DNA of 64,000 bases from Acidobacteriota bacterium (GTDB taxonomy: Bacteria; Acidobacteriota; Thermoanaerobaculia; Gp7-AA8), in the NCBI GenBank assembly GCA_003223645.1, contig QHVT01000018.1:1-64000 (forward strand), given 5' to 3'. Positions 11,492 through 33,633 of this stretch are shown one piece after another. The position numbers and the translations under genes are program-made. Position 1 is the first letter of the stretch, and the number at the start of each line of letters is the position of its first letter. The notes under the pieces were generated by a model. It was not told the origin of the DNA and searched no databases. It worked only from the letters and a program-made list of their open reading frames with translations.

Positions 11492-12256
11492 ATGCCCCGC
11501 ATCCTGGTCACCAACGACGACGGCATCTACAGCGAAGGCCTGCGCAAGCTGGCCACCGTGTGCCGCCAGTTCGGCGACGTGACGATCGTCGCGCCGGACC
11601 GCGAGCAGAGCGCCGCGTCGCACGCGCTGACGCTAAACCGTCCGCTGCGGCTGATGCAGATCGAGGAAAACGAGTGGATCGTCGACGGCACGCCGAGCGA
11701 CTGCGTGAATCTCGCGGTGCTCAAGCTGATGAAGGAGAACCGCCCCGATCTCATCGTCTCCGGCATCAACTTCGGTCCGAACCTCGGCGACGACGTCACG
11801 TACTCCGGCACGATCTCGGCCGCGTTCGAAGGCGCGCTGCTGAACATCCCGTCGATCGCGTTCTCGGCGGTCATCGGCCATCACTTCTCGTTCGATCGCT
11901 GCGCGGCATTCGCGGGCGAGCTGACGCGCGTCGCGCTCGAACAGCATCGCGATCCGCAGATCATCCTCAACGTGAATTTCCCGGTGGAGTTCACGGGCGT
12001 GCGCGTGACGAAGCTCGGCAAGCGGATCTACTCCGAGGGCGTGATCGAGAGGAAGGACCCGCGCGGCAGGAAGTATTACTGGATCGGCGGAGAGCCGCCG
12101 ATCTGGCATCCCGGCGAAGGGACGGACTTCGAGGCCGTGCAGAGCGGATACGTCTCCATCACGCCGCTCCATCTCGATCTCACGCACCACGAATCGATCG
12201 CACGGCTCAAGCCGCTCGAGGAGATGCTTGGCAACTTCGCCGCCGCGCAGCGATGA
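11492..12256 (+). CDS. surE: 5'/3'-nucleotidase SurE
   Basis: SurE is a metal-dependent nucleoside-monophosphate phosphatase of stationary-phase survival. The N-terminal metal site NDDG is at residues 8-11. Further signature regions are APDREQSAASHALT, GTPSDCVNLA, VSGINFGPNLGDDVTYSGT and the late SITPL. Length (254 aa) is normal. A TAGGAT box lies 13 nt before the ATG (11473-11478), and no Shine-Dalgarno site is evident. It overlaps or adjoins pcm, the classical surE-pcm pairing linked to stress survival and protein repair. Confidence 0.95.
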   Translation: MPRILVTNDDGIYSEGLRKLATVCRQFGDVTIVAPDREQSAASHALTLNRPLRLMQIEENEWIVDGTPSDCVNLAVLKLMKENRPDLIVSGINFGPNLGDDVTYSGTISAAFEGALLNIPSIAFSAVIGHHFSFDRCAAFAGELTRVALEQHRDPQIILNVNFPVEFTGVRVTKLGKRIYSEGVIERKDPRGRKYYWIGGEPPIWHPGEGTDFEAVQSGYVSITPLHLDLTHHESIARLKPLEEMLGNFAAAQR

Positions 12257-12911
12257 CAAGAGCGACGAGCGCGGACTCGCGCATCAGCGCGCGCTGATGG
12301 TCGAGCGCCACGTCGCCGCGCGCGGCATCATCGACGAGCGGGTCCTGAAGGCGATGCGCGAAGTGCCGCGCCATCGCTTCGTGCCGCAGAACGTGGCCGC
12401 GAAAGCGTACGGCTCCGGCGCGCTGCCGATCGGCTTCAAGCAGACGATCTCGCAGCCGTACATCGTCGCGAAGATGATCGAGCTGCTCGAGCTGAAGGGC
12501 ACGGAGAAAGTGCTCGAGATTGGCACGGGAACGGGATATCAGGCAGTGGTGCTGTCGAAGCTGTGCGCGAAAGTCTTTTCCATCGAACGAGTCAACGAGC
12601 TGGCGCTCAAGGCGTCGGAGATTTTTCGCGAGCTGAAGATTCACAACGCCTCGGTGAAAGTGTTCGACGGGACCTACGGCTGGTCGGACCAGGCGCCGTT
12701 CGATCGCATCATCGTCGCGGCGGCCGCGCCGGAAGTGCCGGAGCCGCTCGTGCAACAGCTCGCGCGCACGGGACGAATGATCATTCCGATCGGACCGGAA
12801 GGACGCCAGCGACTAGCGCGCGTCATCCGCGTCGGGACCGGAATCAAGATCGAAGACTGCGGCAGCGCCGAGTTCGTACCGCTGGTGGGGAAATTCGGCT
12901 GGCCCGGCTAA
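12228..12911 (+). CDS. pcm: protein-L-isoaspartate O-methyltransferase
   Basis: Pcm uses S-adenosylmethionine to methylate abnormal isoaspartyl residues and start their repair. The fold begins with MVERHVAARGI and has the family run PRHRFVP, GSGALPIGFKQTISQP, the SAM-binding motif VLEIGTGTGYQAVVL, and IIVAAAAPEVPEPL. Two starts are possible. TTG at 12228 has GAGGAG four bases upstream and overlaps surE by 29 bp. ATG at 12297 matches the usual start of homologues but has no ribosome site. I list the longer form; the extra 23 residues are uncertain. Confidence 0.93.
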   Translation: MATSPPRSDDKSDERGLAHQRALMVERHVAARGIIDERVLKAMREVPRHRFVPQNVAAKAYGSGALPIGFKQTISQPYIVAKMIELLELKGTEKVLEIGTGTGYQAVVLSKLCAKVFSIERVNELALKASEIFRELKIHNASVKVFDGTYGWSDQAPFDRIIVAAAAPEVPEPLVQQLARTGRMIIPIGPEGRQRLARVIRVGTGIKIEDCGSAEFVPLVGKFGWPG

Positions 12912-12933
12912 GACATCAAAGCATGGTGCAGCG

Positions 12934-13380
12934 ATGAGAGTCCGCACGCTGCTCTGGTTCACCGCAATCGTGTCGTCGATTCTCGGCGCGTTGATCGTCT
13001 ATCTCGTTCTCTCCGTTCCGAACGATCTGCGCGCCGACGCGCTGATGAAAGAAGCGCGCAAAGACATCACCGCCGGCAACTCATCGAAAGCGCGCGACTC
13101 ACTCACGAAAATCGTGCAGCAGTACCCGCGCACCGACGCCGCGGCCGCCGCGACCGTCGCGCTCGTGTCGCTCGCCAACAAAGAACACGAAGACCTCGCG
13201 CGCTCCGTCAGCGCGCTACGCAAACAACACGACGAGCAGGCGAAGCTCATCACCGACCTGCAGAAAAACGTGACCGACATTCGCAACGCGCCGCCGAAAG
13301 TCGTGACCGTGACGGCGCCGCCGCCCGCGCCGAAAAAGAAGGCGCCGCCCAAGAAATCTGTGCGGCGGCGAAGGCGATAG
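12934..13380 (+). CDS. membrane-anchored coiled-coil protein, 148 aa
   Basis: There is one N-terminal membrane helix (residues about 6-28), then a helical region reading like a single TPR-type hairpin (MKEARKDITAGNSSKARDSL, VQQYPRTDAAAAA) and a coiled-coil stretch (KQHDEQAKLITDLQKNVTDI). The tail is low-complexity Pro/Lys/Arg (PPPAPKKKAPPKK then five Arg), which may contact nucleic acid, lipid or peptidoglycan. It resembles small accessory proteins of cell-envelope complexes but no family is assigned. It follows pcm by 22 bp, so it is probably in the pdxA-surE-pcm operon. Confidence 0.7.
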   Translation: MRVRTLLWFTAIVSSILGALIVYLVLSVPNDLRADALMKEARKDITAGNSSKARDSLTKIVQQYPRTDAAAAATVALVSLANKEHEDLARSVSALRKQHDEQAKLITDLQKNVTDIRNAPPKVVTVTAPPPAPKKKAPPKKSVRRRRR

Positions 13381-13535
13381 CGGCTGCGCTGATAGCGGCT
13401 TCGCTGTGGGCAGCTGCGCTGATGGCCCCGCCCGCCCGCTCTCTGCCTTCTGCCTTCTGCCTTCTGCCTTCTGCCTTCCGCCATCCGCCATCCGCCCACC
13501 GCCATCCGCGCAGCCGCCATCCAGCGAAGCTGCCA
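13376..13535. repeat. heptamer-repeat palindromic array upstream of acylphosphatase
   Basis: The left side is made of GCGGCTGCGCTGATAGCGGC-type units. The right side is tandem heptamers TGCCTTC (five times, then CGCCATC variants) closing with CATCCAGCGAAGCTGCC. The block abuts the TACAAT box of the next gene. Sister arrays lie at 26054-26222 and 28237-28380, each in the same position relative to a gene. Confidence 0.8.
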
Positions 13536-13541
13536 TACAAT
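13536..13541 (+). promoter_or_regulatory. -10-like box TACAAT, 9 nt before acyP start
   Basis: TACAAT is followed by nine pyrimidine-rich bases and ATG at 13551. The leader has no Shine-Dalgarno sequence, so leaderless initiation is plausible. Confidence 0.5.
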
Positions 13542-13550
13542 CCCCCAACC

Positions 13551-13826
13551 ATGAAAGAACAGCGGCACATGGTCATCCACGGAAAAGTCCAGGGCGTGGG
13601 CTATCGCTTTTTCGCGACGCGCGTGGCGCGGCGGATGGGTCTGAAGGGCTGGATCCAGAACAATCGCGACGGCTCGGTCGAAGCGCTCGTCGAAGGCGAG
13701 AAAAAAGCGATCGACGAATGGATCGAGGAGCTGAAGGAAGGGCCGCGCTACGCGGAAGTGACGAGGATCGATCAGGAGTCGAAAGAGTTCAGCGGCCGCC
13801 TGCCCGACTTCGACGTGAAATTCTGA
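13551..13826 (+). CDS. acyP: acylphosphatase
   Basis: A small cytosolic enzyme of 91 aa that hydrolyses acyl phosphates. The catalytic Arg is in GKVQGVGYRFF (R19) and the catalytic Asn in GWIQNNRDGSVEA (N37), both in their standard contexts, and length matches the family. The start was chosen at the ATG after the TACAAT box; the longer frame upstream is repeat sequence. The TGA shares one base with the apt start (TGATG), so acyP and apt are translationally coupled. Confidence 0.95.
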   Translation: MKEQRHMVIHGKVQGVGYRFFATRVARRMGLKGWIQNNRDGSVEALVEGEKKAIDEWIEELKEGPRYAEVTRIDQESKEFSGRLPDFDVKF

Positions 13827-15324: not shown

Positions 15325-15735
15325 TTATTCATCCTCTCCGCGATAGCTCACGGAATTGCGCTCGGTTTCCTGCAGGTGAACTTCGTATAGCTGGCCGTGC
15401 GGAATCGCCGGCGCGAGCTGCTGCCAGAATGCGCGCGCGAGGTTTTCCGCGGTCGGGACCATGCCGCGCAGGAAGTCGACGTCTTCGTTGAGATTGCGGT
15501 GGTCGACGCGATCGATGACGCGCTCGCGCATCACGTCCTTCAGCTCCTTGAGATCGATCACCATGCCGGTGTCGGGATCGATCGTGCCGCGCACGCTCAC
15601 CTCGAGCCCGTAGTTATGGCCGTGGCCGCCCGGGTTGTCGCACTTTCCGTAGGTTTTGCGGTTCCAGGCCTCGTCGCGGTTCGGATTGTGCAACCGATGA
15701 GCCGCGGAGAACGTGAGTCGTGCGGTGATGATCAT
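15325..15735 (-). CDS. 6-pyruvoyltetrahydropterin synthase / QueD-like protein
   Basis: A 136-residue T-fold enzyme. Zinc ligands are the His in FSAAHRLHNP and the two in GGHGHNY; the catalytic Cys is in YGKCDNPGG; the Asp/His relay is in DHRNLNE; the pterin-anchoring Glu is in LQETERNSVSY. The Cys and spacing fit both QueD (6-carboxytetrahydropterin synthase, queuosine route) and PTPS. No other queuosine or folate gene lies nearby to decide. The ATG at 15735 is preceded by CATAAT with a nine-base gap and no Shine-Dalgarno site. Confidence 0.88.
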   Translation of the reverse strand: MIITARLTFSAAHRLHNPNRDEAWNRKTYGKCDNPGGHGHNYGLEVSVRGTIDPDTGMVIDLKELKDVMRERVIDRVDHRNLNEDVDFLRGMVPTAENLARAFWQQLAPAIPHGQLYEVHLQETERNSVSYRGEDE

Positions 15736-15744
15736 TCGCGATTC

Positions 15745-15750
15745 ATTATG
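15745..15750 (-). promoter_or_regulatory. -10-like box CATAAT, 9 nt before the PTPS/QueD start
   Basis: The box overlaps the start codon of the divergent 87-aa gene (ATG 15748-15750). The two start codons are only 12 bp apart, so the promoter of each gene must lie at least partly inside the other gene. Confidence 0.45.
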
Positions 15751-16011
15751 AACGAGCAGCTCACCATCGTCTGCCACAACGGCGTGTTCGTCCTGCCGGA
15801 AGCGGTTTACAAATCGCTTGCCTCATTCGCGCGCAACGACTTCATCTACATCCGCGAGGACGAGGACGCGCTCCTGATCTCGACGATCCCGATCGCCGAC
15901 GGACGCCGCCGCGTGCTGCACATGCGCCTGCGCGCGCCGATGTTCCGCAACGCGCGCCAGCTGGCGATCGTCGACTTCCGCGACGCGGTGCGCGTGATGC
16001 CGCTGGTCTGA
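15748..16011 (+). CDS. hypothetical protein, 87 aa
   Basis: A small protein with alternating hydrophobic pattern (TIVCHNGVFVLPEAVYKSL, NDFIYIREDEDALLISTI, RQLAIVDFRDAVRVMPL), probably a compact alpha/beta or beta-barrel domain. No family recognised. Its ATG was chosen because the longer frame runs antisense through the divergent QueD-like gene. The gene is followed by 91 bp without features and then a convergent gene. Confidence 0.6.
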   Translation: MNEQLTIVCHNGVFVLPEAVYKSLASFARNDFIYIREDEDALLISTIPIADGRRRVLHMRLRAPMFRNARQLAIVDFRDAVRVMPLV

Positions 16012-16102
16012 GTCTCCGGGCCTCCCGATAGTTCCCGGCAAGCCAGAATCTTGTGTAAACGCTTCCTAAACAACGACGCCCGAGGCGCGTCGCACCCGAG
16101 CT

Positions 16103-16846
16103 TCATTTCTTCTTTGCGCGACCTTTCGAGGGACCGGACTTATGGGCCCGGCTCTTTGAGCTACGTCCCTTCGCCGAAGCACGCTCTTTGGCAATCGACG
16201 ACGTGTCATCACCAAGCCGTTTCCTGCGCGCACGATCGATCGCTCGCAGCGCTATCATTGCAGTACGCTCGACCGCATCCACATCTTCAAGGTCGAGGTT
16301 TCCGAATTCCGGGAAAACTGCCACAGCGATTCGCTGTCCGGTTATCTTTGTCTCTTTTCGAAGCTCGGCGAGTAGTTCCACCATGCCTGAATTGTCGCTC
16401 GTCGATTTGTCCGGCGCGCCCATTTTGTCGCGCCCCTCCCGGAGCGCGGCAGATGCGCCGTACACCTCAAGGACCTGTTCTTCGAGTGCTGTGAGGTGGC
16501 GGAAATGAACGGATGACTCGAACGATCCTGCCTTCGCGGTATCGGCGTTGCTCGACAACTCCACACGCAGCTCCGCGAGAACATCATCGGTTAAGCATGC
16601 GCGTGTCCTATACACGTCGCCGGCTTGCGCCAGCGACTGCCGGCGATCTTCGACATACGCCTGCCACAGTCGCGCGATGGTCCCAGCGCATCGATCTTTG
16701 ACCTCCGTGTTCGTCGGATCTTTCTCTAGCACATCGAGGCATTCCGCGATGTACTCAGCCATCCACGCGTGGAGGAAGGTTGCACGGCGTATTTGCAGTT
16801 CGCGCAGGATCAATCTCGCACGGGTCGCGAGGTGCTTGTCATTCAT
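16103..16846 (-). CDS. hypothetical partner of the STAND NTPase, 247 aa
   Basis: The ATG at 16846 lies one base after the TAA of the giant NTPase gene, so the two are co-transcribed and probably coupled. The product is predicted mostly helical (RARLILRELQIRRATFLHAW, AECLDVLEKD, FRHLTALEEQVLEVYGAS). It has a polar linker (about 140-155), a second helical segment, and a Lys/Ser/Arg-rich tail of about 35 residues (ending KGRAKKK) that could bind nucleic acid. No family recognised. Pairing with a large STAND protein suggests an accessory or regulatory subunit of the same defence-like system; this is inference from position only. Confidence 0.7.
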   Translation of the reverse strand: MNDKHLATRARLILRELQIRRATFLHAWMAEYIAECLDVLEKDPTNTEVKDRCAGTIARLWQAYVEDRRQSLAQAGDVYRTRACLTDDVLAELRVELSSNADTAKAGSFESSVHFRHLTALEEQVLEVYGASAALREGRDKMGAPDKSTSDNSGMVELLAELRKETKITGQRIAVAVFPEFGNLDLEDVDAVERTAMIALRAIDRARRKRLGDDTSSIAKERASAKGRSSKSRAHKSGPSKGRAKKK

Positions 16847-16847
16847 C

Positions 16848-19800
16848 TTATTTTTCGGAAAGAAGTGATGATGCGAGGAACACACGTGTCGAGCCTCGAT
16901 CGTATTCGTCCCTTTCGTCCTTTTCGTCCTTGTTGCGGTACTTGTACGCCGTCTGTCGCCGCAGTGTGACGATGAACGCGACATCGCTCGACGTCGCATT
17001 CATCAGCCGTGCGAGAGCGGTCTTTGTGAGAAGCAGACGATATCCGGAGGCGCCGTCAACATCTTCATCTGCCTTCCCGTCGTGCCAGAGCTCCGCTTCC
17101 ACGAGGGGCACGCCCTGATCGTCCACCCACGTGAGGCCGAGCGGGGTCAGACGCCGGAGCGCGAGTGCTTCTTGGACGACTGATGAAGGGTACGGATAAT
17201 TCCGCGAGAAGCTTTTCCACCGCGGGTCGCGCCGGTGGAAATCAAACTCCTGGTGAAGCTCGCCAAGCGTCAACCGAAGTGCGAAGTCGTCCTCTCCACC
17301 TTCCTCATCTTCTTCATCTTTGTCATAGGCCTCACCGTAGAGCCGCATATCGGCTTCCAGTTCCGGAAGAATCGTCGTGTAGTCGAGCGACTGCGACTGC
17401 GCGTAAAAACGATTGCTCGATGCAGTGGCGGCCTGGGCGAACGCCTGCGCTGTCGACCTTGGAACGAGAATCGTGCGAACCGAAACATCGAAATCGTACT
17501 CGCGCGACCCGCCTTCCATCTCCGCGACAAGAACGTACGCGTCGTCGGTGGCGATATGCCGAAGATAATCACTCTCCGGTCGAGACGCGCGCCATTCCCT
17601 AAGCGGTGCATCAAACAGTCCGTAGTTCTGCCGCTCGGAAGGTGGCGGTCCGAGCAAGCCGCTCGGCAAGGACGGATCTGCCCCTCGTGCGTCGGACCGG
17701 ATCCAGTCCGTCCACTCGTCCATAACGTCCCTATTCCTGCGGACTACCGGCATGCTGTCGACAAGCTCTCCTGCGACGACGAACATGGCATGCCGCTCCG
17801 CGTACGACTGGAGTGTTTCTACTGTGGGCTCGCTCCCATGGTCATGGCTTGTCTCACGCCAGTCGTACTCGTGGCGATCCGCGTCGTCTTCTTTAAGGCA
17901 TCGGTCGTGCGTTAGGCCCCACTTCTCGACGATCCAAGGCATGGCGCGGTTTGCGATGTCTGCGCCTGTGAGGTTGAATACCGAGCCCAGAGGGTCATAC
18001 CAATATGGGATCGTGTCGACCGGATCGAAGTGAAATGGCTGGTTGTACCAGTCTTCGTTGTGGCGGCTTCCGATTGCGCGAGACGTCTTCTCCTTCGTGA
18101 ACCGGATCGGTTGCTGCGACGTAAGAACGGCTGTTCGAACGTCGTCCGCCACCGCGTCCGGGTAAGCGGCGGCGACGGCGAGAACGATCTCCCGCGCATG
18201 CGAGCGGTGCTTCGCATGCGGGAAGGCGCGATTGCGGGCGATATCGACGAATACGTCGAGAGACGTCTGGAGGAGATCAGTGTGACGGAGGGCGAGGTAA
18301 TGGAAGGTAAAAAGCATCCATTCACGCCGCGTCATCCAGCGGGAATGCGCCTCGTCCTTCAGGATTGCGAGAAAGTTCGGAAGAAGTGCCGTGTTCGCGA
18401 GGAGTGCCTCGATCGCGGCATACACAGCGCGAAACCGGAATTCGACCCGTGGGTGCGCGAGCATCTCACCGATCGCGGCCACGATTGCGGTGGCGCCGTC
18501 GCCCGCGTTTTCCGACAGTGCGGGCCGGGGGCTTGGGACGCGCTGGAAGGCGCGGGGCGCAGCAAAGTTGTAGTACGTCGACGCGGTCGTCGCGTCGCGG
18601 CTCCGTACGAGCTCGCCGATCCAGCGGTATACCGTGTCGGTGCCGATCGAATCGAGGCTCTTCGCGATCGCTTCCGCAATTGGGTCGAAGAGCGCATCTT
18701 CGGCGCCTTGGAACGCGGACCGCAGCGCGTGCCGCGAACGACCGTCGTAATCGTGGAGGAGCATCGCAAGGATGCCCGGACGCGTGAGGAGGCGCGCCGC
18801 CACAGCACGCGCATCGGCGGCGGCGTTGGGACAGCGTTCGACGACGGCATGGATCATCGGAACTGCCTCGATGATGCGATAGGAGGCGTCTTCGACCCAT
18901 CGCTCAAGAATGCCGAGGAGTCGCCGCGTATTCGCCGTACTCAGCGATGCAGCGAGCGAGGCGACGACTGCGTCTGCGCGCTGTCCCGCGCCGAGCGCAG
19001 AGGGTACTTCCTCGAGACGTGCGAGCGCGCGCAAGGACGAATCGGCAAGGAGTACCTCCACCGTCTCGATTTCTTCGTCTGACTTTAGACGCGTAGAGGT
19101 AATCGCATCCGCGCGCTCCCGGTACTTGATACCTTCGGCGCGCGCTTTCGTCAGGTCGTTTGAGAGTGTCGCGACCGAGGGTTCATCTGCGAGCCCATGC
19201 ACGGATGCGTAGGCATTCACGATCTCTGCGTGTTGGAAACGCTCACTTCCCGGCATTCGCCGGACGTACTCCGCCCACCGGCTGACATACGTTGCCCGAT
19301 CGGCCTCTCGAACGAATGGTTCAATCGCTTCGAAGAACGCGGCGGTCGCGGTCGGCGACTGGGCGAAGGACGCGACGGTGGCGACGACGCCCGCATTCGT
19401 GTCACTCCGCTTCGCAATCCCGATCGCTACGGGCGGTAAACCGAGAAGCACGTGCAGCTTCGCGGCCCGCTCCCAATCGAGCGCCAGTTCAACCGCCAGC
19501 ATTGGTGTGACCTGAGCAATCGCGGTGAGTGTGTCCTCCATTCGCCGCACAGGCGCGTCGCTGTCCATATCGGCGCCGTATTCGACGAGCGCGGCAAGCT
19601 GCTGCACCTGAATAGATGATGGCGTCGCACCACGGTCAACGAGCGTCTCGAACGACCCAAGAACTGCGACTGTCCGTGCGTCGATCGTCGCGTCAATTGC
19701 GTCTGCGAGAGAACGCGCGGCATCGACCACCCGCGTGCCGAGTGTTCGTTCGACGCTCCGCGCCGCAGCGTATGATTCGAGAAGGACGTCGACGGCCTCC

Positions 19801-22800
19801 GTCGCCCGGATTTGCGGCGGTCGCTCGGCGTCGAGCATCTTGAGAAACAACTCCTCCGCATCACGATGGTACCGGTCGTCGCCGGCGAGGATTGTTGCAA
19901 GGCGGCCGTATTCGCGATGCGCGGGGTTCGAGAGTTCGCGTTCCACCATCTCGCGGACATCGGCCACCGCGCCGGCCGATCGCGTCGCTCCGTAGCGAAG
20001 CGCATGGAGGACTTCCTGCGCTGCTACCTTCACGTCGAGCCGGGTCGGCTCACGACGGTAAGTCTTGTTCGCGTACGCGTTCTTGATAGCCGGGAGATGC
20101 TCCTCGATGTCCGCTGCTCCTGCGACACCGGCCGCCGCACGGACCCGGAGCACGGCCGCCGGATACGTCCGCGCGAGCACGCTCCGAACATGTTCGAGAT
20201 CGGCATCGTATCCCGCCGACCGCGAAGTGCCCGCCTTCGCAGGTTCGAATACCTCTCCGGTCAAGTGCTCACGAAGTGCCATGTACCGAATGAATCTGTC
20301 GACCGGCTCGTGCCGGAATCGCGGCACCGCCTGCTCCGCAAGTGGGAGGACCGAGCGCGCGAGATCAAGATGACTGCCATGCAGAAGCGCTTCTGTTGCA
20401 TCGAGGAAAACAACGTGCGGACCCTCGTGAAGCACGCGCTGCGCGAGAGATGCCTTCCCGGTCCATGCGACAAGCTGCGGCAGATCGGCGGATGACGGCA
20501 GGAGGTCCCTTCGTGCGAGAAGCCCGAGTGCAGCGAACGCGCGGCATACTTCATCTTTGATCGTCGGAAGAACGGCGAGCAAGGCGCCGGCGGATTGCAG
20601 GGCGAGATGGCCGGTGATGAGGTCCGCGTAGACAGGCGCGATGACGGGGGCGGGTGACCACCCCCCAAGCTGCTCGATTGCATAGTCGAGGCTCTTGAAG
20701 CGCGCATCCGCAACGGCGATATTCAAGATGTCTGGAGGGTGAAATCCATCGCCATGGCCGCGGCGTGCTTCATGGCGGAGGATAGCCATGCCCCGTTCGC
20801 GAAGATCCCATGCTTGTTCTGGAGCGCCGAGTGCTGCCGCGAACGCGAGGTACATCCGCGCGACGGACGTTCCCTGGTCCGAATCCTGGAGCCATCCGAT
20901 GACGGCATCGGCGAAGCCTTCTTCGATGGCAACGGTGGGTACCTTCGCGAGCGCGTGAAAAAAGAGGTTCCGGCCTTGCGTGACATCGGCGGCAATCGTG
21001 AGCAGCTGCAGCACGTCACCGCGACGCTGACGCGCTGTCGCCGCGAGAACTGCGTGCGCGAGATCGGACCGAATCGTCTCGTCTTGCGACGACCGTACAC
21101 ACACTTCTTCCTCGATGCGGTTGTCGGTCAACCAATGATCAACAAGCTCGTCGAGCCGTCCGGCTTTATACAGATGAGCGGAGTAGTTGCGGCGCGCGTA
21201 CGGGTCATCCGTAACGTGCGACGCGCAGAACGCGGCGAGTGTGGCACGGGCATGTGGGAGTTCCTGCGCAAGGAATTCGCGGACGAAGTCCCAAAACTCT
21301 TGATCTCGCCATTCGACCTGCGAATCGCTATCGCGGAGTCCAAATGCGAGTGACGCCTGGAGGCGCCGGAGGTCTGGCTCCGGGCAACCGCTGAGGGCCG
21401 ACCACGTTGCAAACGTGATCGGCTGGATCGCCTCCACGAGGATCGCGAGCGCCGCGCGGTCCGCCGGATCATCAAGGCGGTTCGGCGCGTGCTCGCGGTA
21501 ATACTCGAATGCGCTCTTCCGCGCCTCGTCGCGAATGTACGTTTCTCGAACGAGCGTCGGGTCGGCAGCGACGTCGCGAAGGATGAGTGCCTGCACGCGG
21601 CCAGTTCCATCCGTCGCGTCGTGCAGAAGCTCGGCCTCATCCTGTGTGAGATCGGCGACATACGATCGTGCGTGCAGAAGCGTCTCGTCAGCGGTGAATC
21701 CCTCAAGCTCCACCGATGCTGCGGGCGTGACCGTAATCTGCCCCAAATTTTCCGACCGAGCCGTCGTGAGAATGACGACGCCCTCGGGGATGTCCACTTT
21801 CCCCAGCAGCGGGACGAAGGAGTCTCTACCTCGGATTGTTGAATCGGCAGCCGCAGCGGCAGCGTTATCGATGGCATCCACCGCGAGAAGGAGTCTTTGG
21901 CCCGACTGCGTCGCGATTTCACCGGCTGCGCGGAGGGCCTCTTCGAACCGCCGGGCGAGCTGTGTGTACTCGACTTTCGTCGTGGCAAGAATGCCGGTGT
22001 GGAGCGCTCCGTCGAGGTCGTTGATTACCTGTGTGAAAAATACTGAGTAGGGGAATCGCTCGTGACCCGGTTTCATCCCCGACCCACTGCCGAAACAGTC
22101 GTAGATAACCACGCGAAACTCGTCGGCGTACTCACGCGCGAGTACCTGCACGGTGCTCGTCTTCCCGCGGCCGGCTAAGCCGTGCGCGAGCACGATGCCA
22201 CGCTGCACGCCGCGTACGAGGCCGGCGACCGCGTGCGCATCCTTCGTTCGGAAGAGCGACGGCGGGAGTTGTAGCTGTGAGGGTGCGGGTGCGAAATCCT
22301 CGGCGAAGAGCCGTAGATGCGTGAGCACGTCCTCCACGAAGATATCGGTCGGACGGTTCGGGAGCGCGTGCTCCTGGATATAGGCGATGAGATCCCCGAC
22401 GTGGATGTCGGACGTGAACGTTGCGATTTCGCGTGCAAGTAGGCCTTCAGCCGCAGTAAGGAGCGGACTCGCGAAACTGCCGATGTCGAACGCGCCGACG
22501 AAGCGCTGAAAGATCGCGTTATCCAGTCGAGTGGCGGTTTTGAACTTCTTGAGCCACGCGAGATCGGTTTCTTCGAGATCAGCCTCTGTGCCGTTCTCGA
22601 TCGCTGTCCGCACGCGTCCATACGCGGCCGCATCGTCGTCCGAGAGCGGCTGGTTCGTGACGATCCCGATGCGATAGGCAACTGCGGGAGCGTGGGTGTA
22701 AAGCGCCTCAAACGCGCGAGCAAGTTTGCCCACCACCGACGACTCTGGCTTCTGCGCGTGACGGGGTGCTATCAGCCGCGCAAGCGTCCATGCCTTTGCG

Positions 22801-23051
22801 GGGTGTGTCGGGCTGTACTTGACCTGGCGAATCGCGACCGTATGCGCATTCGCCAGCCTGTCTCCACCGTAGTACTCCGTTAGGTCAACACCCAGGAACG
22901 TCTCATCGTCACCAGTGGCGTCTTCAGGCGCCACGCCCTCCATGACGAGGCGGCGCAACTCCGTGATCGGGTGCAGCAGATCGAGAGCACGGCGCGCAGC
23001 GAAAACGAAGTGGTATCGGTCGCCGGCGTTCGATTCAAGTGCAGGACTCAT
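16848..23051 (-). CDS. giant STAND NTPase with N-terminal nuclease domain (Avs-like)
   Basis: About 2067 aa. Residues 1-170 look like a PD-(D/E)XK nuclease of the Cap4/DUF4297 kind: an early Glu (ESNAGDRYHFVFAARRALDLL), GVD at 54-56 and IRQVK at 75-79 as the D...QxK catalytic set. Residues about 270-560 form a STAND/AAA-type NTPase: Walker A GLAGRGKTST (K297), Walker B LLLAVDAIDNA (D392, D395) and TTARSENL as sensor. The remaining 1500 residues are helical, repeat-like and without motifs I know, as in sensor regions of antiviral STAND (Avs) proteins that detect phage proteins and then cut DNA. Starts at 23087 (GTG) or 23075 are possible; 23051 begins just before the nuclease core. The C-terminus has a charged run (DEKDERDEYDRG) from a 9-bp microrepeat. 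The gene is less GC-rich than its neighbours. Confidence 0.8.
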   Translation of the reverse strand: MSPALESNAGDRYHFVFAARRALDLLHPITELRRLVMEGVAPEDATGDDETFLGVDLTEYYGGDRLANAHTVAIRQVKYSPTHPAKAWTLARLIAPRHAQKPESSVVGKLARAFEALYTHAPAVAYRIGIVTNQPLSDDDAAAYGRVRTAIENGTEADLEETDLAWLKKFKTATRLDNAIFQRFVGAFDIGSFASPLLTAAEGLLAREIATFTSDIHVGDLIAYIQEHALPNRPTDIFVEDVLTHLRLFAEDFAPAPSQLQLPPSLFRTKDAHAVAGLVRGVQRGIVLAHGLAGRGKTSTVQVLAREYADEFRVVIYDCFGSGSGMKPGHERFPYSVFFTQVINDLDGALHTGILATTKVEYTQLARRFEEALRAAGEIATQSGQRLLLAVDAIDNAAAAAADSTIRGRDSFVPLLGKVDIPEGVVILTTARSENLGQITVTPAASVELEGFTADETLLHARSYVADLTQDEAELLHDATDGTGRVQALILRDVAADPTLVRETYIRDEARKSAFEYYREHAPNRLDDPADRAALAILVEAIQPITFATWSALSGCPEPDLRRLQASLAFGLRDSDSQVEWRDQEFWDFVREFLAQELPHARATLAAFCASHVTDDPYARRNYSAHLYKAGRLDELVDHWLTDNRIEEEVCVRSSQDETIRSDLAHAVLAATARQRRGDVLQLLTIAADVTQGRNLFFHALAKVPTVAIEEGFADAVIGWLQDSDQGTSVARMYLAFAAALGAPEQAWDLRERGMAILRHEARRGHGDGFHPPDILNIAVADARFKSLDYAIEQLGGWSPAPVIAPVYADLITGHLALQSAGALLAVLPTIKDEVCRAFAALGLLARRDLLPSSADLPQLVAWTGKASLAQRVLHEGPHVVFLDATEALLHGSHLDLARSVLPLAEQAVPRFRHEPVDRFIRYMALREHLTGEVFEPAKAGTSRSAGYDADLEHVRSVLARTYPAAVLRVRAAAGVAGAADIEEHLPAIKNAYANKTYRREPTRLDVKVAAQEVLHALRYGATRSAGAVADVREMVERELSNPAHREYGRLATILAGDDRYHRDAEELFLKMLDAERPPQIRATEAVDVLLESYAAARSVERTLGTRVVDAARSLADAIDATIDARTVAVLGSFETLVDRGATPSSIQVQQLAALVEYGADMDSDAPVRRMEDTLTAIAQVTPMLAVELALDWERAAKLHVLLGLPPVAIGIAKRSDTNAGVVATVASFAQSPTATAAFFEAIEPFVREADRATYVSRWAEYVRRMPGSERFQHAEIVNAYASVHGLADEPSVATLSNDLTKARAEGIKYRERADAITSTRLKSDEEIETVEVLLADSSLRALARLEEVPSALGAGQRADAVVASLAASLSTANTRRLLGILERWVEDASYRIIEAVPMIHAVVERCPNAAADARAVAARLLTRPGILAMLLHDYDGRSRHALRSAFQGAEDALFDPIAEAIAKSLDSIGTDTVYRWIGELVRSRDATTASTYYNFAAPRAFQRVPSPRPALSENAGDGATAIVAAIGEMLAHPRVEFRFRAVYAAIEALLANTALLPNFLAILKDEAHSRWMTRREWMLFTFHYLALRHTDLLQTSLDVFVDIARNRAFPHAKHRSHAREIVLAVAAAYPDAVADDVRTAVLTSQQPIRFTKEKTSRAIGSRHNEDWYNQPFHFDPVDTIPYWYDPLGSVFNLTGADIANRAMPWIVEKWGLTHDRCLKEDDADRHEYDWRETSHDHGSEPTVETLQSYAERHAMFVVAGELVDSMPVVRRNRDVMDEWTDWIRSDARGADPSLPSGLLGPPPSERQNYGLFDAPLREWRASRPESDYLRHIATDDAYVLVAEMEGGSREYDFDVSVRTILVPRSTAQAFAQAATASSNRFYAQSQSLDYTTILPELEADMRLYGEAYDKDEEDEEGGEDDFALRLTLGELHQEFDFHRRDPRWKSFSRNYPYPSSVVQEALALRRLTPLGLTWVDDQGVPLVEAELWHDGKADEDVDGASGYRLLLTKTALARLMNATSSDVAFIVTLRRQTAYKYRNKDEKDERDEYDRGSTRVFLASSLLSEK

Positions 23052-23149
23052 TTCATGCGGGCATCCTGCATCCATCGTACGCGCCACAGCCCGAACCTCA
23101 AGACCTGCTACTTGTGAAAGGATGTTGGCGCCACGGCGTATGCTCCCGG

Positions 23150-23178
23150 AGGAGATCCTTCGCTTTGCTCAGGATGAC
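23150..23178. repeat. dispersed-repeat fragment (GGATCTCC / TCCTGAGC type)
   Basis: The minus strand reads GTCATCCTGAGCAAAGCGAA followed by GGATCTCC, a short repeat seen in many bacterial genomes. It lies in the gap between the STAND gene and the pseudokinase gene. Confidence 0.5.
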
Positions 23179-23194
23179 GTGCGCTGCGCGCACG

Positions 23195-26035
23195 TCACTT
23201 GATCTGCGCGAGCGCCGCTTTCGTCTCGTCCTGCTGCTTCGTGAACTGATCGCGCACGCTCTGGAACTTCGGCTCGTTGGCGAGGTAGCCGAACAGCGGA
23301 TTGGCGAGGATGTACGCGGCACTCGGCTCTTTCCGCTGTGCCGCCTTCTGCAACGCGGCGAGCGCGCCCGGCGTGTCTTTGAGGACGGTGTGCACCTCGG
23401 CCGCGCAGGTCCACGACTGATCGCCCTGCTCCGCTGCGTCGAGCGCGGAGGACAGCTCTCTCATCGCCGTCGCGCGGTCGCTCTTTTCCGCGGCGATGTA
23501 CGCGTTCAGCATGTGCAGGCCGTACAGCGGATCGGACGTCATCAGCTTCTTCTGCTCGATGTCCGCGATCTCCAGCGAATGGCGCAACACGGAGAAGCGG
23601 CCGATCTTCAGCGACAGCGCGGGATTGTTCGGAATCATCTCTTCGATCTTGTAGTAGCCCGGGATCGCGGCGTTGATGCGTCCCGACTGCGCGATCAGAT
23701 CCGGCTCGTGCGCCGCGACCTGCATCGCGGCGACGCGCCGCAACCGCACGAGCATGGCGTTGAATCGCGCCGCGTCTCCCGCCGACGCCGCGTAGCGCGC
23801 GATGAGGTTCAATCCCTCGGCGTCATTGGGATCGCGCTTCAGGATGAGGTCGTACGCCGCAAACGTCTCCTGCAGATCGCCGGTCATCAGCATTGCGCGC
23901 GCGACGTTCCGCGCGGCGTCGAGATTGGATGGATCCAACGTGACGACCTGCTTCGCGGCCGCGAGCGCGTCGGAGGACTTTCCGCTGAGCGCGAAAAACT
24001 TCATCGCCATCAACTGCGCGGGCAGGAAGTTCGGATCGGAGCCCATCGCCGCGCGCAGCGATGTATCGGTGCGCTTGCTGTCATTCAATGAACGAGCGAC
24101 GACCGCATCGGCAAACGAATTCAGCGCATCCGCCGCTGCGTACGTGCGCGGCTGCGTCTGCACGGACGTCGTGACGTACAGCACCATCGCGCGGATGCCG
24201 CTCGCGACGTCGAGCATCGCCGCCGGCTGCCCGCTCTTCGCGCCCGCCCTCGGCACGAGCTCCGCGCCCGCGGCTCCCAGGCGCACGTGCGCGGAAAACG
24301 AATCGCCGTCCGGCGCCGGCGCGTCGGTCACGCGCAGCTCGGGAAATGTTTTCAGGATCTCGATCGTGCCGAGCTGAATCGCCTTCGCGCGATCGGCAAG
24401 CGCGGGATCGGGCGCTTCGACCGTGAACGGCGCGACGAACACGCGACGCGGATTCGCCGCGGTCGCCGGCTGCGGACCTTGCGGCGCCGCGGCGGCAACC
24501 GGCTTCGCCGTATCCGTCGCGCTCCGCCGCTGCCACATCAACGCCGCGCCGCCGAGGATCGCGATCAATACGATCGCGGCGACGGCGATCACCATCGCGC
24601 CTTTGCGCTTCTGAGCGGCTTCCTTGGCGACGAGCGCGGCATTCTCCGCCGCCGCTTCCGCTTCCAGCTCCGCGGTCGAGACGCTCGTCTCCGTCGGCGC
24701 GACTGCAGCCACCGGCTCCGGCTGCACAATCGTGAACAGCTTCACGCCCGCGCGCGCGCCGGCATCGCGGAAGCGCACGTTGCCGCGCCCTTCGCGCACG
24801 AAGTCTTCGGTGATGTAGAGCGCGTTCGGCGGCAACTGCTCAAGCACGTGGATCGCCTTCTCCATCGTCGGACCTGCCGGCTCTCCGTCGCGCATCTCGA
24901 TCATACCGGCGTGCAGCAGCAAACGCGCCTGCAACACGTCGCCGGTCTGATTCTCGGGATCGAGATCGAACTCCGCCTTGCGTCCGGCTTCGAGCGCGCT
25001 TTCCACCGACGGCAGCTCGGCGACGAGACGCCGTCCGAACGGATCGATGACCTTGCCGTCGAACAGATACACCGACTCGCCGAGGATTTGCTGCATGCGC
25101 GTGACGTCCTCCTCGTGATCGGAGGTCACGTCCGCGATGAAGAGAATCGTCTGCCGCTGTTCTCTCTGCGACGTACGCGCGATGACCGGACGTTTCTCGA
25201 AGTGCGACGAGAATTCGGCCGCCATCGGATCCGCCTTCTCGATCATCTCGACGAGCGCGCGCGTGTCTTTGACGCGCTTGAACGGATCCTTGAACAGGCA
25301 GGCGCCGACGACCGCGAGCACGTCCTTGTCGATGTCGGGGTTCGCGCCGCGCGGAGAGATCGGCTGCGACTCGACGACCAGGCGCGCGATGTCGGGCGCG
25401 TTCTCGCCGGGGAACGGCAGCTTGCCGGTGGCGGCTTCGAAGAGCACGACGCCGGTCGAGAAGATATCGGTGCGCTCGTCGATCGACAGCGACGCGATCT
25501 GCTCCGGCGCCATGTACGAGACCGCGCGCGGATCGCCGCCCTTCTGTTGATAGATCAGCGAGGTTTTCTCGCGGCGCACGAGATTCGTGAGATTCAGTCC
25601 CGCGAGCCGCACCTGTCCCTCGTGCGTGACCAGCACCGCGTCGCCGTTGATGTTGCCGTGCAGCAGCATCTTCGTGTGCAGGTACTTCACGACCGACGCG
25701 AGCTGATGCGCGAAGCGGAAAAACTGCGCGCGCTCGAGCGGCTGGCCGTGCAGGATCTGCGTGAGCGTCGAGCCCTCGACGAGCTCCAGGATCATGACCA
25801 GCGTGTCGCCGACCGCCTCGATCTCGAGGATCGGAACGAGGAACGAGTGATACAGCGCGGCGGCCACACGCACATCGCGAATCAGCGTCTCGCGCCGCCC
25901 GGGATCCTTCGGCAGCGTGCGCGTGAGCAATTTCAGCGCGACGTTTTTCCCGTTGCGCGTGTCTTCCGCGATCCAAACCGACGAGCCGACACGTTCACCG
26001 ATACGCCAGGGACCGAGGGACTGATTCGAGGACAT
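23195..26035 (-). CDS. membrane pseudokinase with C-terminal TPR-like domain, 946 aa
   Basis: Residues about 8-275 have the Ser/Thr kinase fold (VALK with K35, YMAPEQIA, DERTDIFSTGVVLFEAATG). The catalytic loop reads HGNINGDAV (126-134) instead of HRDxKxxN, and the Mg-binding DFG is replaced by LAGLNL (144-149), so it should not phosphorylate. A receiver-like or linker region follows, then a membrane helix at about 480-502 (MVIAVAAIVLIAILGGAALMW), and then an extracytoplasmic part with tetratricopeptide-like hairpins (about 700-930). It could be a signalling scaffold reading envelope cues. The start ATG at 26035 has TATAAT 12 nt upstream and no ribosome site; the longer frame is repeat DNA. 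Confidence 0.85.
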   Translation of the reverse strand: MSSNQSLGPWRIGERVGSSVWIAEDTRNGKNVALKLLTRTLPKDPGRRETLIRDVRVAAALYHSFLVPILEIEAVGDTLVMILELVEGSTLTQILHGQPLERAQFFRFAHQLASVVKYLHTKMLLHGNINGDAVLVTHEGQVRLAGLNLTNLVRREKTSLIYQQKGGDPRAVSYMAPEQIASLSIDERTDIFSTGVVLFEAATGKLPFPGENAPDIARLVVESQPISPRGANPDIDKDVLAVVGACLFKDPFKRVKDTRALVEMIEKADPMAAEFSSHFEKRPVIARTSQREQRQTILFIADVTSDHEEDVTRMQQILGESVYLFDGKVIDPFGRRLVAELPSVESALEAGRKAEFDLDPENQTGDVLQARLLLHAGMIEMRDGEPAGPTMEKAIHVLEQLPPNALYITEDFVREGRGNVRFRDAGARAGVKLFTIVQPEPVAAVAPTETSVSTAELEAEAAAENAALVAKEAAQKRKGAMVIAVAAIVLIAILGGAALMWQRRSATDTAKPVAAAAPQGPQPATAANPRRVFVAPFTVEAPDPALADRAKAIQLGTIEILKTFPELRVTDAPAPDGDSFSAHVRLGAAGAELVPRAGAKSGQPAAMLDVASGIRAMVLYVTTSVQTQPRTYAAADALNSFADAVVARSLNDSKRTDTSLRAAMGSDPNFLPAQLMAMKFFALSGKSSDALAAAKQVVTLDPSNLDAARNVARAMLMTGDLQETFAAYDLILKRDPNDAEGLNLIARYAASAGDAARFNAMLVRLRRVAAMQVAAHEPDLIAQSGRINAAIPGYYKIEEMIPNNPALSLKIGRFSVLRHSLEIADIEQKKLMTSDPLYGLHMLNAYIAAEKSDRATAMRELSSALDAAEQGDQSWTCAAEVHTVLKDTPGALAALQKAAQRKEPSAAYILANPLFGYLANEPKFQSVRDQFTKQQDETKAALAQIK

Positions 26036-26047
26036 AAGGGGAAGGAC

Positions 26048-26053
26048 ATTATA
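26048..26053 (-). promoter_or_regulatory. -10-like box TATAAT, 12 nt before the pseudokinase start
   Basis: On the minus strand TATAAT follows directly on the CGCCATC heptamer array and precedes ATG 26035 by 12 pyrimidine-rich bases. Confidence 0.5.
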
Positions 26054-26222
26054 GATGGCGGATGGCGGATGGCGGATGGCGGATGGCGGGCTTTGCCTGA
26101 TGGCGCGCCTTCGGCGGGTTGGCGGCTTCGCTGATGGCCACACCCGTCCCGCGTGCTCTGCCATCTGCCATCTGCCATCTGCCATCTGCCATCAGCGTAG
26201 CCGCCATCAGGCGTAGCCTGCC
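26054..26222. repeat. GGATGGC / TGCCATC heptamer palindrome
   Basis: Five GGATGGC units at the left are mirrored by tandem TGCCATC units at 26158-26200, flanked by GGCGGCTTCGCTGATGG and GTAGCCGCCATCAG segments. It fills the gap between the carboxylase genes and the pseudokinase promoter. Confidence 0.85.
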
Positions 26223-31871: not shown

Positions 31872-32516
31872 CTACATCCGAAACACGCGAATCTCTGCCG
31901 CGCCGAATACCGCCACCGCCGCGTAATACCCTTCCGGCGCAGCAAGATCCGTCAGCGTCCAGTTGTCGAGCGGCGATGCATCGAGCACGTCGTACTCTTC
32001 GAGCGGCTGCGAGAGTCCTTTGCCGATTCCCTTGAGCAGCGCTTCCTTGCGCGTCCAGAGGCGGAAGAATTCGGGGAGCGTGGTGATGTGCGCGCGCTCG
32101 TTCGGGGAGCAGAAGTGGCGGATGAGGTCGCGGTACTCGGGCAGCGGACGCACTTCTTCGATATCGATGCCGACCGGCGGTCCGCCCGAAAATGCGAGCG
32201 CGGCCCACGCGCCGGAGTGCGAGACGTTGAACTCGACCGCGCGATCGGCGAGCGCCGGTTTCTGGCCGGCGCCGCCGGTGATCGCGAGCGCGTGCGGCTC
32301 GATGCCGGTGTAGCAGCCGAGCAGCACGCGCAGCGTCGTGCGCGTGACGACGTAGCGCTGCCGGTCGGCGGAGATGCGAAAGCGCGTCGCGTCGAGCCGT
32401 TCCTGGCTCGACAAAATCTCCGCCGCGCCGGCATTGCCGATCTTCACGAGCCACACGTGCACCTCGGCGCCGCCGCGCAAGGCGGCGACGTCGGATGCGC
32501 GGAGTGCGGATGCCAT
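31872..32516 (-). CDS. 4'-phosphopantetheinyl transferase (Sfp type)
   Basis: 214 aa. It transfers phosphopantetheine from CoA to the carrier-domain Ser of the NRPSs upstream. Family motifs: FNVSHSGAWAALAF, VGIDIEEVRP (metal ligands D118 and E120) and FFRLWTRKEALLKGIGKGL (W154, K157, E158, K162). It is the last gene of the NRPS operon; its ATG shares one base with the stop of the membrane-protein gene (TGATG). Position and length fit dedicated activation of this assembly line. Confidence 0.94.
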   Translation of the reverse strand: MASALRASDVAALRGGAEVHVWLVKIGNAGAAEILSSQERLDATRFRISADRQRYVVTRTTLRVLLGCYTGIEPHALAITGGAGQKPALADRAVEFNVSHSGAWAALAFSGGPPVGIDIEEVRPLPEYRDLIRHFCSPNERAHITTLPEFFRLWTRKEALLKGIGKGLSQPLEEYDVLDASPLDNWTLTDLAAPEGYYAAVAVFGAAEIRVFRM

Positions 32517-32860
32517 CACCTTCGCTGCACGACGTCGACGAGCTTCCAGATCGCGAGAATGATGATCCCGAGACCGAGGAGCGAGCCGATCGCGCCGCCG
32601 GCGAAGACGCCGGCGGTGAGCGGCGTGATCAAAGCGAGTAGCAGGAAGACGAGCACGATATAGCCGAGCATCTGCCACCCGCTCGTCTTGCGCCGCTTCG
32701 CGCTCATCCACCACGCCCACGGCGGCACGCGTCCGTAGTCGCCGGCGGCAGCAGCCTCGGCGGCGGCTGCACCGGCCGCGCCCGCGGCGGCTTCGGCGCT
32801 GCCGGCCAGAATCTCGTCCTCTTCTTCGATGCGTTTTTTGCGATTGTTGCGGTCGTTCAT
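32516..32860 (-). CDS. small membrane protein of the NRPS operon, 114 aa
   Basis: The start at 32860 is preferred over the ATG six bases upstream. AGGAGA is then seven bases away, and the codon overlaps the thioesterase stop as ATGA like the other junctions. The N-terminal half is acidic and Ala-rich (EEEDEILAGSAEAAAGAAGAAAAEAA), then PPWAWWMSAKRRK. Two membrane helices follow (about 65-90, LGYIVLVFLLLALITPLTAG; about 90-112, GAIGSLLGLGIIILAIWKLV). No transporter motif. Being inside a tightly coupled NRPS operon suggests a role in localisation, export or immunity, but nothing in the sequence proves this. Confidence 0.75.
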   Translation of the reverse strand: MNDRNNRKKRIEEEDEILAGSAEAAAGAAGAAAAEAAAAGDYGRVPPWAWWMSAKRRKTSGWQMLGYIVLVFLLLALITPLTAGVFAGGAIGSLLGLGIIILAIWKLVDVVQRR

Positions 32861-33633
32861 ACCCATGTCTCCTTTCGTTGCGGCACTGTGAATTGAGCGT
32901 GTGCGGAATCGATCGCGCGGCGGATCTCGTCGAAGATCCGGCGGCGATGCCGGTGTAGAAAAAAGTGACCTCCGTCGAAGAGGCGCAGATCGAAGGGCGC
33001 GTTGGTGTGTCGCTCCCACGCCGCGACGTGCGGCCACGGCTCGCACGTGTCGCCGAGTCCCCCCATCGCGAGGATCGGCACATCGAGCGGCGGCGCGTCG
33101 ACGTACGTGTAGCAGTCGCACGCTTCGAAATCGGCGCGCAGCGGCGGCAGAAAAAACGAGAGCATGTCTTCGTCCTCGAGAATCTCGGGCGGCGTTCCTT
33201 CCATCGACGACAGCTCGGCGACGAACTCGTCATGCGGACGGTCGTAGATGCGCGCGCGCTGCAGCGGGACGTCCGGCGCGCAATGTCCCGACGCGATGAG
33301 GAGGAACGGCTGCGGCGCGTTGCGCGCACGCAGAATGCGCGCGAGCTCGTACGCGATCAGCGATCCCATGCTGTGCCCGAACAGCGCGAACGGGCGATCG
33401 AAGAGCGGATCGAGCTCCGTCGCCGCGGCGGTCGCCATGTCGCGGATCGAGCGCAGCAGCGGCTCGCCCGCGCGATTCTCGTGACCGGGAAGTTGCACCG
33501 GACAGACTTCGACGCGCGGCAGCTCCGCGGCCCATCCCGAATACGCCGACGCGCCGCCGCCCGCGTGCGGGAAGCAGAACAGACGCACGTCCGCATCGTC
33601 GTTCGCCGTCTTCCGCAGGATCCATCCCTTCAT
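32857..33633 (-). CDS. type II thioesterase of the NRPS operon
   Basis: 258 aa alpha/beta hydrolase. It shows FCFPHAGGGASAYSGWA, the nucleophile elbow GHSMG (S88), MGGLGDTCEP near the catalytic Asp, and GGHFFLH with the catalytic His (H223). Such enzymes remove wrong acyl groups from carrier domains and restore stalled NRPS modules. It overlaps NRPS1 upstream and the membrane-protein gene downstream by 4 nt each. Confidence 0.95.
   Translation of the reverse strand: MKGWILRKTANDDADVRLFCFPHAGGGASAYSGWAAELPRVEVCPVQLPGHENRAGEPLLRSIRDMATAAATELDPLFDRPFALFGHSMGSLIAYELARILRARNAPQPFLLIASGHCAPDVPLQRARIYDRPHDEFVAELSSMEGTPPEILEDEDMLSFFLPPLRADFEACDCYTYVDAPPLDVPILAMGGLGDTCEPWPHVAAWERHTNAPFDLRLFDGGHFFLHRHRRRIFDEIRRAIDSAHAQFTVPQRKETWV

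Follow-up and report, generated by a model that had tools for sequence, protein, structure and literature searches.

A candidate AVAST type 3 (Avs3a-Avs3b) gene pair on a deep branch in an Acidobacteriota genome

The gene pair and its genomic setting

The window, the whole 64,000-nucleotide stretch of Acidobacteriota DNA that we analyzed, contains two adjacent genes on the reverse strand that resemble avs3a and avs3b. The genes, the domains assigned to the large protein and the surrounding features are as follows.

16848..23051, - strand: avs3a-like gene, 2067 aa, with predicted Cap4-like PD-(D/E)xK nuclease, STAND NTPase, helical solenoid and C-terminal domain (PADLOC, NCBIfam and SeAvs3 matches)
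22512..23051, - strand: N-terminal nuclease domain, ~residues 1-180, end approximate (E38, D56, Q76, K78 and SeAvs3 alignment)
21552..22244, - strand: STAND NTPase core, ~residues 270-500 (Pfam AAA_16 and NACHT; invariant Walker residues)
18372..20891, - strand: helical solenoid, ~residues 721-1560, the most divergent part (segment identities, model and fold alignment)
16851..18371, - strand: C-terminal domain, ~residues 1561-2067, homologous to the SeAvs3 C-terminus (hhalign and NCBIfam Avs3a profile)
16103..16846, - strand: avs3b-like gene, 247 aa, with a conserved N-terminal three-helix region (~8-70), a variable remainder and a basic tail (PADLOC, NCBIfam, hhalign and profile matches)
16000..23204: segment of ~7.2 kb that holds the pair and is missing in G001, a relative of the same genus (blastn)
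23152..23179, - strand: 28-bp repeat interspersed across the genome, here upstream of avs3a (144-bp upstream query)
15325-15777: flanking QueD-like gene (Pfam PTPS, 4.4e-37)
23195-26185: flanking kinase gene

The large gene starts with an ATG at 23051 and its stop codon occupies 16848-16850; the small gene starts with an ATG at 16846 and its stop codon ends at 16103, leaving a gap of one base (16847). These open frames bear out the two-gene layout given in an initial annotation of this DNA (2067 aa, then 247 aa with a basic tail, one base apart). A GTG 12 codons upstream of the ATG is a possible alternative start for the large gene; counted from the ATG, S7 is the first residue of the large protein that is conserved across homologs. 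The 6.2-kb open frame is not due to chance, because full-length homologs exist. A promoter scan gave one promoter-like site, on the opposite strand, compared to a shuffle mean of 1.8, and a terminator scan gave seven terminator-like sites compared to a shuffle mean of 5.7.

The pair had been described as less GC-rich than its flanks, and this is a modest effect. Total GC is 0.622 in the avs3a-like gene and 0.581 in the avs3b-like gene, versus 0.609-0.659 in five flanking genes and 0.654 in the window. The description fails for the total GC of the large gene, which is not below that of the QueD-like gene (0.622 vs 0.609). It holds for GC3 (0.697 and 0.633, versus 0.775-0.894), which separates the pair from the five flanking genes better.

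In the blastn comparison with G001, the alignment breaks off at window position 23205 and picks up again at 15999, two points separated by 47 bases in G001. The best matches to the kinase and QueD-like genes lie on one contig, 5-407 bp apart, in at least 11 of 17 relatives (own genome excluded); the distance in the window is 7.4 kb. In the other six relatives there was no kinase/QueD-like pair among the matches listed, and the kinase match in one of them (G007) ends at a contig edge. The segment was either inserted here or lost in G001. Because it is absent from G001 and the flanking genes are neighbors in relatives, insertion would be the simplest reading. A nearest-relative search of 59 other genomes found an Avs3a-like match only in G043, which belongs to another family.

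A PADLOC scan of six flanking proteins gave one match, that of the kinase to PD-T4-6 and other kinase models. We rejected the kinase as a defense-island gene and take the match to be generic, because the kinase neighbors the QueD-like gene in at least 11 relatives. The 144-bp query upstream of avs3a had at least 25 matches in its own genome, including itself, most of them at query positions 16-43, with 40 of the 77 candidates scored. Short arrays of 7-bp units (TCTGCCT, GCCATCC, GATGGCG, TCTGCCA) recur in the window at 13442-13522, 26054-26089 and 26157-26193, and one of them lies in an N-terminal stretch of the kinase frame that is probably spurious.

Homology of the two proteins to Avs3a and Avs3b

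The large protein matched the Avs3a profiles of PADLOC (E = 3.5e-69) and NCBIfam (NF041816; E = 1.7e-85, 287.5 bits), each in two stretches. The NCBIfam score lies far under the curated equivalog cut-off of 2800 bits and so outside NCBI's narrow Avs3a naming, and we therefore regard the protein as a divergent Avs3a. When the NCBIfam profile was run against the protein's own genome, profile positions 4-482 (E = 3.0e-46) and 1610-2074 (E = 3.3e-39) matched in collinear order, the second stretch covering the C-terminal domain, and there was no other match anywhere in that genome. Among PDB sequences, SeAvs3 (8dgc; E = 8.1e-42) was the sole match below E = 0.9, with two significant stretches (i-E = 2.5e-27 and 1.2e-13), the first of which aligns SeAvs3 residues 10-685 to residues 7-683 of the large protein. 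The Avs3a profile and SeAvs3 matches agree with the Avs-like nuclease-STAND-repeat architecture proposed in the initial annotation. The only PADLOC models matching at E up to 1 were Avs3a, Avs1b and mad8. With the single large protein as query, tblastn found no relative in genome contigs or viral contigs, and no relative was found in phage records.

The N-terminal domain is a predicted Cap4-like PD-(D/E)xK nuclease, homologous by alignment to that of SeAvs3. The residues E38, D56, Q76 and K78 are invariant in 19 aligned sequences, the window's included (the 20 loci surveyed below minus L022, in which the gene is split). In the STAND core, Walker A reads G291-x-x-G-x-G-K297-T and Walker B reads D392..D395-N396; G294, G296, K297, D392, D395 and N396 are invariant in the same alignment. 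Pfam AAA_16 (4.9e-5) and NACHT (6.2e-4) matched the large protein, both under their curated cut-offs. The 'D...QxK' nuclease block noticed earlier is E38, D56 and Q76-x-K78; of the two key residues then named, K297 in Walker A was right and K79 is K78 in the present numbering.

The long C-terminus had been called unfamiliar, and this description no longer applies. Using hhalign, we found that residues 868-2067 matched four Avs3a-type C-termini (E = 6.3e-25) over fragment positions 709-1194, corresponding to the last ~490 residues, with no extension into the solenoid. By these alignments, the C-terminal domain is homologous to the Avs3a C-termini, including that of SeAvs3. The initial annotation had also called for structure prediction of this region. 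The structure that we predicted for residues 868-2067, using the sequences of the window and 11 loci, is of moderate quality (mean pLDDT 62.2, pTM 0.43) and shows a helical solenoid with an alpha/beta domain at its end. Foldseek placed both chains of 8dgc ('Avs3 bound to phage PhiV-1 terminase' in the PDB) at the top (2.4e-19 and 5.0e-19), and the best unrelated match was at 8.0e-4. VIA-align gave 8dgc a Z of 14.4 (model 45-1200 versus chain 934-2079, rmsd 21.3 A; next Z 11.7), in a range where mostly helical models can reach a best Z of 14 without a clear match. Because the TM-scores of the 8dgc matches were low (0.32 and 0.21) and the rmsd was 21-25 A, the arrangement of the sensor is not placed. 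The model supports a fold collinear with SeAvs3 and does not give an accurate arrangement.

Judged by segment identities, the solenoid is the fastest-evolving part of the protein. Identity between the window and five relatives was 13-21% in the solenoid, compared to 27-41% in the nuclease domain, and was 13% against the SeAvs3-like Klebsiella protein. The Klebsiella-Janthinobacterium pair had 29% identity in the solenoid and 44-52% in the first three segments. Of six further pairs, five had a clear drop in the solenoid; the close pair Sphingobacterium-Pedobacter dropped least, from 69-75% to 63%.

The small protein weakly matched the Avs3b models of PADLOC (1.7e-4) and NCBIfam (NF041817; 2.1e-4) over ~50-60 N-terminal residues, scoring 21.3 of 200 bits with the latter and thus falling below NCBI's curated Avs3b cut-off. 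We made a profile of 13 Avs3b-type proteins, without the window's own, each of which matches PADLOC Avs3b at E = 0.01 or better. Residues 8-63 of the small protein aligned to this profile by hhalign (E = 7.6e-7, probability 91.7), and a search of its own genome with the profile found the small protein (E = 2.9e-6). By these matches, the small protein is a divergent Avs3b with homology spanning ~60 residues. The earlier reading of the partner as unknown is ruled out by the PADLOC, NCBIfam, hhalign and profile matches, since Avs3b is a family with PADLOC and NCBIfam models.

Two residues, W28 and W61, are invariant in both Avs3b alignments that we made, and the conserved part comprises the first ~70 residues. 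The structure model (mean pLDDT 54.7, pTM 0.31) was not good enough for fold searching, with block means of 66-88 reached by ~residues 1-70 only. Searching PDB sequences with the 13-member profile gave a best E of 0.2, no member matched Pfam at E = 0.01, and plasmids gave no match at E up to 0.1 when searched with the small protein by itself. The term Avs3b was not found among the papers listed from the literature searched.

Co-occurrence and placement of the pair

We surveyed 20 Avs3a-like loci, selected by the large protein only: the window, two genomes of the phylum, six plasmid records and 11 named genomes, with some near-duplicates (two Hymenobacter, two Mucilaginibacter, and Kordia and Cellulophaga). 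Their genera belong to several phyla. An Avs3b-type gene (221-314 codons as mechanically called) was adjacent to or overlapped the large gene in 19 of the 20 loci. Thirteen of these calls were scanned and matched PADLOC Avs3b, the window's rests on PADLOC and that of G354 on the 13-member profile; for L022, L024, L028 and L030 the call was made by aligning or visually comparing the gene with its near relatives. The exception was the Tistrella locus (L015). We left out G363 (L012, interrupted gene), G388 (L013, a 327-aa nuclease-domain frame) and L020 (an annotated gene of 872 aa whose only match is C-terminal). Matches were present in 12 plasmid records, of which seven were fetched and six counted; H7, H10, H11 and H12 lay outside the survey, and H3 and H4 are records of one strain.

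Among 396 genomes of the phylum (own included), an Avs3a-like match was present in five and a match to the 13-member Avs3b profile in four, all of them within the five. One of the four (G043) is itself in the profile, leaving three that are independent. In three of the four, the Avs3b match sits next to the Avs3a-like gene; in G363 it lies in a 122-aa open frame 2.4 kb beyond the last Avs3a match, behind the interrupted Avs3a gene. The fifth Avs3a-positive genome, G388, has only the 327-aa frame. NCBI's own Avs3b model matched in three of the 396 genomes (own genome, G043 and G363), none above its cut-off. The initial annotation had made its reading depend on a nuclease fold and on the partner co-occurring with the NTPase; both nuclease homology and co-occurrence are present.

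Some individual loci had other features. The Avs3a-like gene on the Tistrella mobilis plasmid (L015:4971-14505) overlaps a gene annotated as ATP-binding, in our reading a histidine kinase, and a sigma-54-dependent regulator comes next. The gene of Mucilaginibacter psychrotolerans (L022:8938-15354) is split in two frames with an Avs3b-type gene directly after it. In a class relative (L012:6538-14709) the Avs3a-like gene is also broken, and a 472-codon open stretch (12224-13639) precedes the Avs3b match. The 327-aa frame of G388 (L013:7061-8044) matches the nuclease part of Avs3a only, along with a CBASS SAVED-PDDEXK model (6.8e-5).

In a maximum-likelihood tree of residues 1-690 from 20 proteins, the window's protein groups with that of G354, a relative within the phylum (97/96), and then with an Armatimonadetes protein (100/100), and the annotated Klebsiella and Janthinobacterium avs3a products are in a separate group (100/100). 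The tree is rooted at its midpoint only, Tistrella sits on a long branch, and composition is skewed in 12 of the 20 rows. The original description of AVAST reportedly presented type 3 as a two-gene system. Two plasmid records carry the layout annotated as avs3a-avs3b, and the distinct subtype proposed earlier is not supported. In one of them, from Klebsiella variicola (L016), Avs3a aligns to SeAvs3 across all 2092 aa (4396 bits). The window's pair has the same gene order and similar lengths (2067 vs 2092 aa and 247 vs 257 aa, window first), and it shares with SeAvs3 and L016 the predicted Cap4-like nuclease, STAND motifs, C-terminal homology and a collinear fold match. In contrast, identity to the Klebsiella variicola protein is 13-27% by segment, and avs3a and avs3b overlap in that plasmid but are one base apart in the window. 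For the window's protein, terminase recognition is suggested by homology.

Other systems were more distant. Avs1b of AVAST type 1 matched weakly in the STAND region (residues 278-433 only; E = 2e-4 with PADLOC and 5.7e-5 with NCBIfam), with E-values weaker than those of Avs3a by ~65 to 80 orders of magnitude, and no other PADLOC model of AVAST type 1 matched the pair. A PD-(D/E)xK nuclease domain is common to the window's protein and the CBASS Cap4/DUF4297 nucleases, and no SAVED or HerA model of Pfam or PADLOC matched the pair. Passages of PMC11291478 report DUF4297 as structurally closest to the nuclease domains of SeAvs3 and EcCap4. We found no paper joining defense systems, Acidobacteri and AVAST in the literature searched. 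By homology and tree position, the pair is a new, divergent and deeply branching member of AVAST type 3 that lies below NCBI naming cut-offs, rather than a new type, and extends type 3 to that deep branch.

A candidate mechanism and its alternatives

Taking together the gene structure, the homology at both ends of the large protein, the catalytic and Walker residues, the fold match of the sensor, the co-occurrence with Avs3b and the absence of the segment from relatives, we think it likely that the pair is an anti-phage operon of AVAST type 3, made up of avs3a and avs3b, on a deep branch, most simply gained by insertion between housekeeping genes, with a terminase-sensing nuclease mechanism. 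ATP has a role in Avs3 assembly. The N-domain of SeAvs3 is described as a PD-(D/E)xK nuclease, and binding of a viral protein as causing tetramerization, pairing of nuclease domains and DNA cleavage (passages of PMC11291478). Avs1-4 are stated to recognize terminase, portal or Ksap1 and to cleave phage and host DNA (in part of PMC12931631).

By homology, Avs3a would be kept inactive in the uninfected cell. The solenoid and C-terminal domain would recognize a phage protein that is conserved, the large terminase being the most likely trigger. With ATP on the STAND module, Avs3a would tetramerize, the N-terminal Cap4-like nuclease domains would pair, and DNA would be degraded, so that the phage is stopped and the cell probably dies. 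Avs3b is probably co-translated, because it is encoded one base downstream of avs3a, and it probably binds Avs3a through the conserved three-helix region, acting as a regulator or stability factor. The presence of Avs3b across Avs3a loci, with conservation confined to ~70 N-terminal residues, sharpens the neglected question of its role.

The sensing of a new trigger by the C-terminus, as first suggested, is possible. Because solenoid identity is 13% and the hhalign match stops short of the solenoid, trigger specificity could differ. Effector and switch would then be the same, with the diverged solenoid re-aimed at portal or at an unknown phage protein. The low solenoid identities relative to the nuclease domain, and the sensing of portal or Ksap1 by other Avs proteins (in part of PMC12931631), are consistent with this reading. 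However, the solenoid is also fast between other family members, including the Klebsiella-Janthinobacterium pair, so its rate is no mark of the window's branch, and the C-terminal domain retains detectable homology. We consider re-aiming unlikely. Somewhat more doubtful still is the fuller version in which the deep branch uses the Avs3 chassis for a non-terminase trigger and Avs3b, as a subunit for specificity or assembly, co-evolves with the rapidly diverging solenoid.

The pair could instead be what is left of an acquired Avs3 operon that has decayed and lost its function. Decay occurs in the Avs3a family, as broken copies were found in relatives (L022 and L012), but both frames in the window are full length and the family-invariant residues are kept, making this very improbable. 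We give hardly any credence to a two-gene nuclease system that merely shares a Cap4-like nuclease and STAND module with Avs3, such as a relative of CBASS effectors: the 327-aa relative in L013 does match a CBASS model, but homology of the window's protein to Avs3a resumes at the C-terminus, an Avs3b relative is present, and the short set of PADLOC matches given above holds no CBASS model.

Apart from the pair and its terminase-sensing candidate mechanism, the window contains a large non-ribosomal peptide synthetase cluster (31872-63997, - strand). Condensation, AMP-binding or carrier domains were found in the four frames scanned (the first half of a 5681-codon frame; 39878-42889 lay outside the scan). 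A methyltransferase and a terminal thioesterase are encoded at 33633-39881, and a phosphopantetheinyl transferase at 31875-33329.
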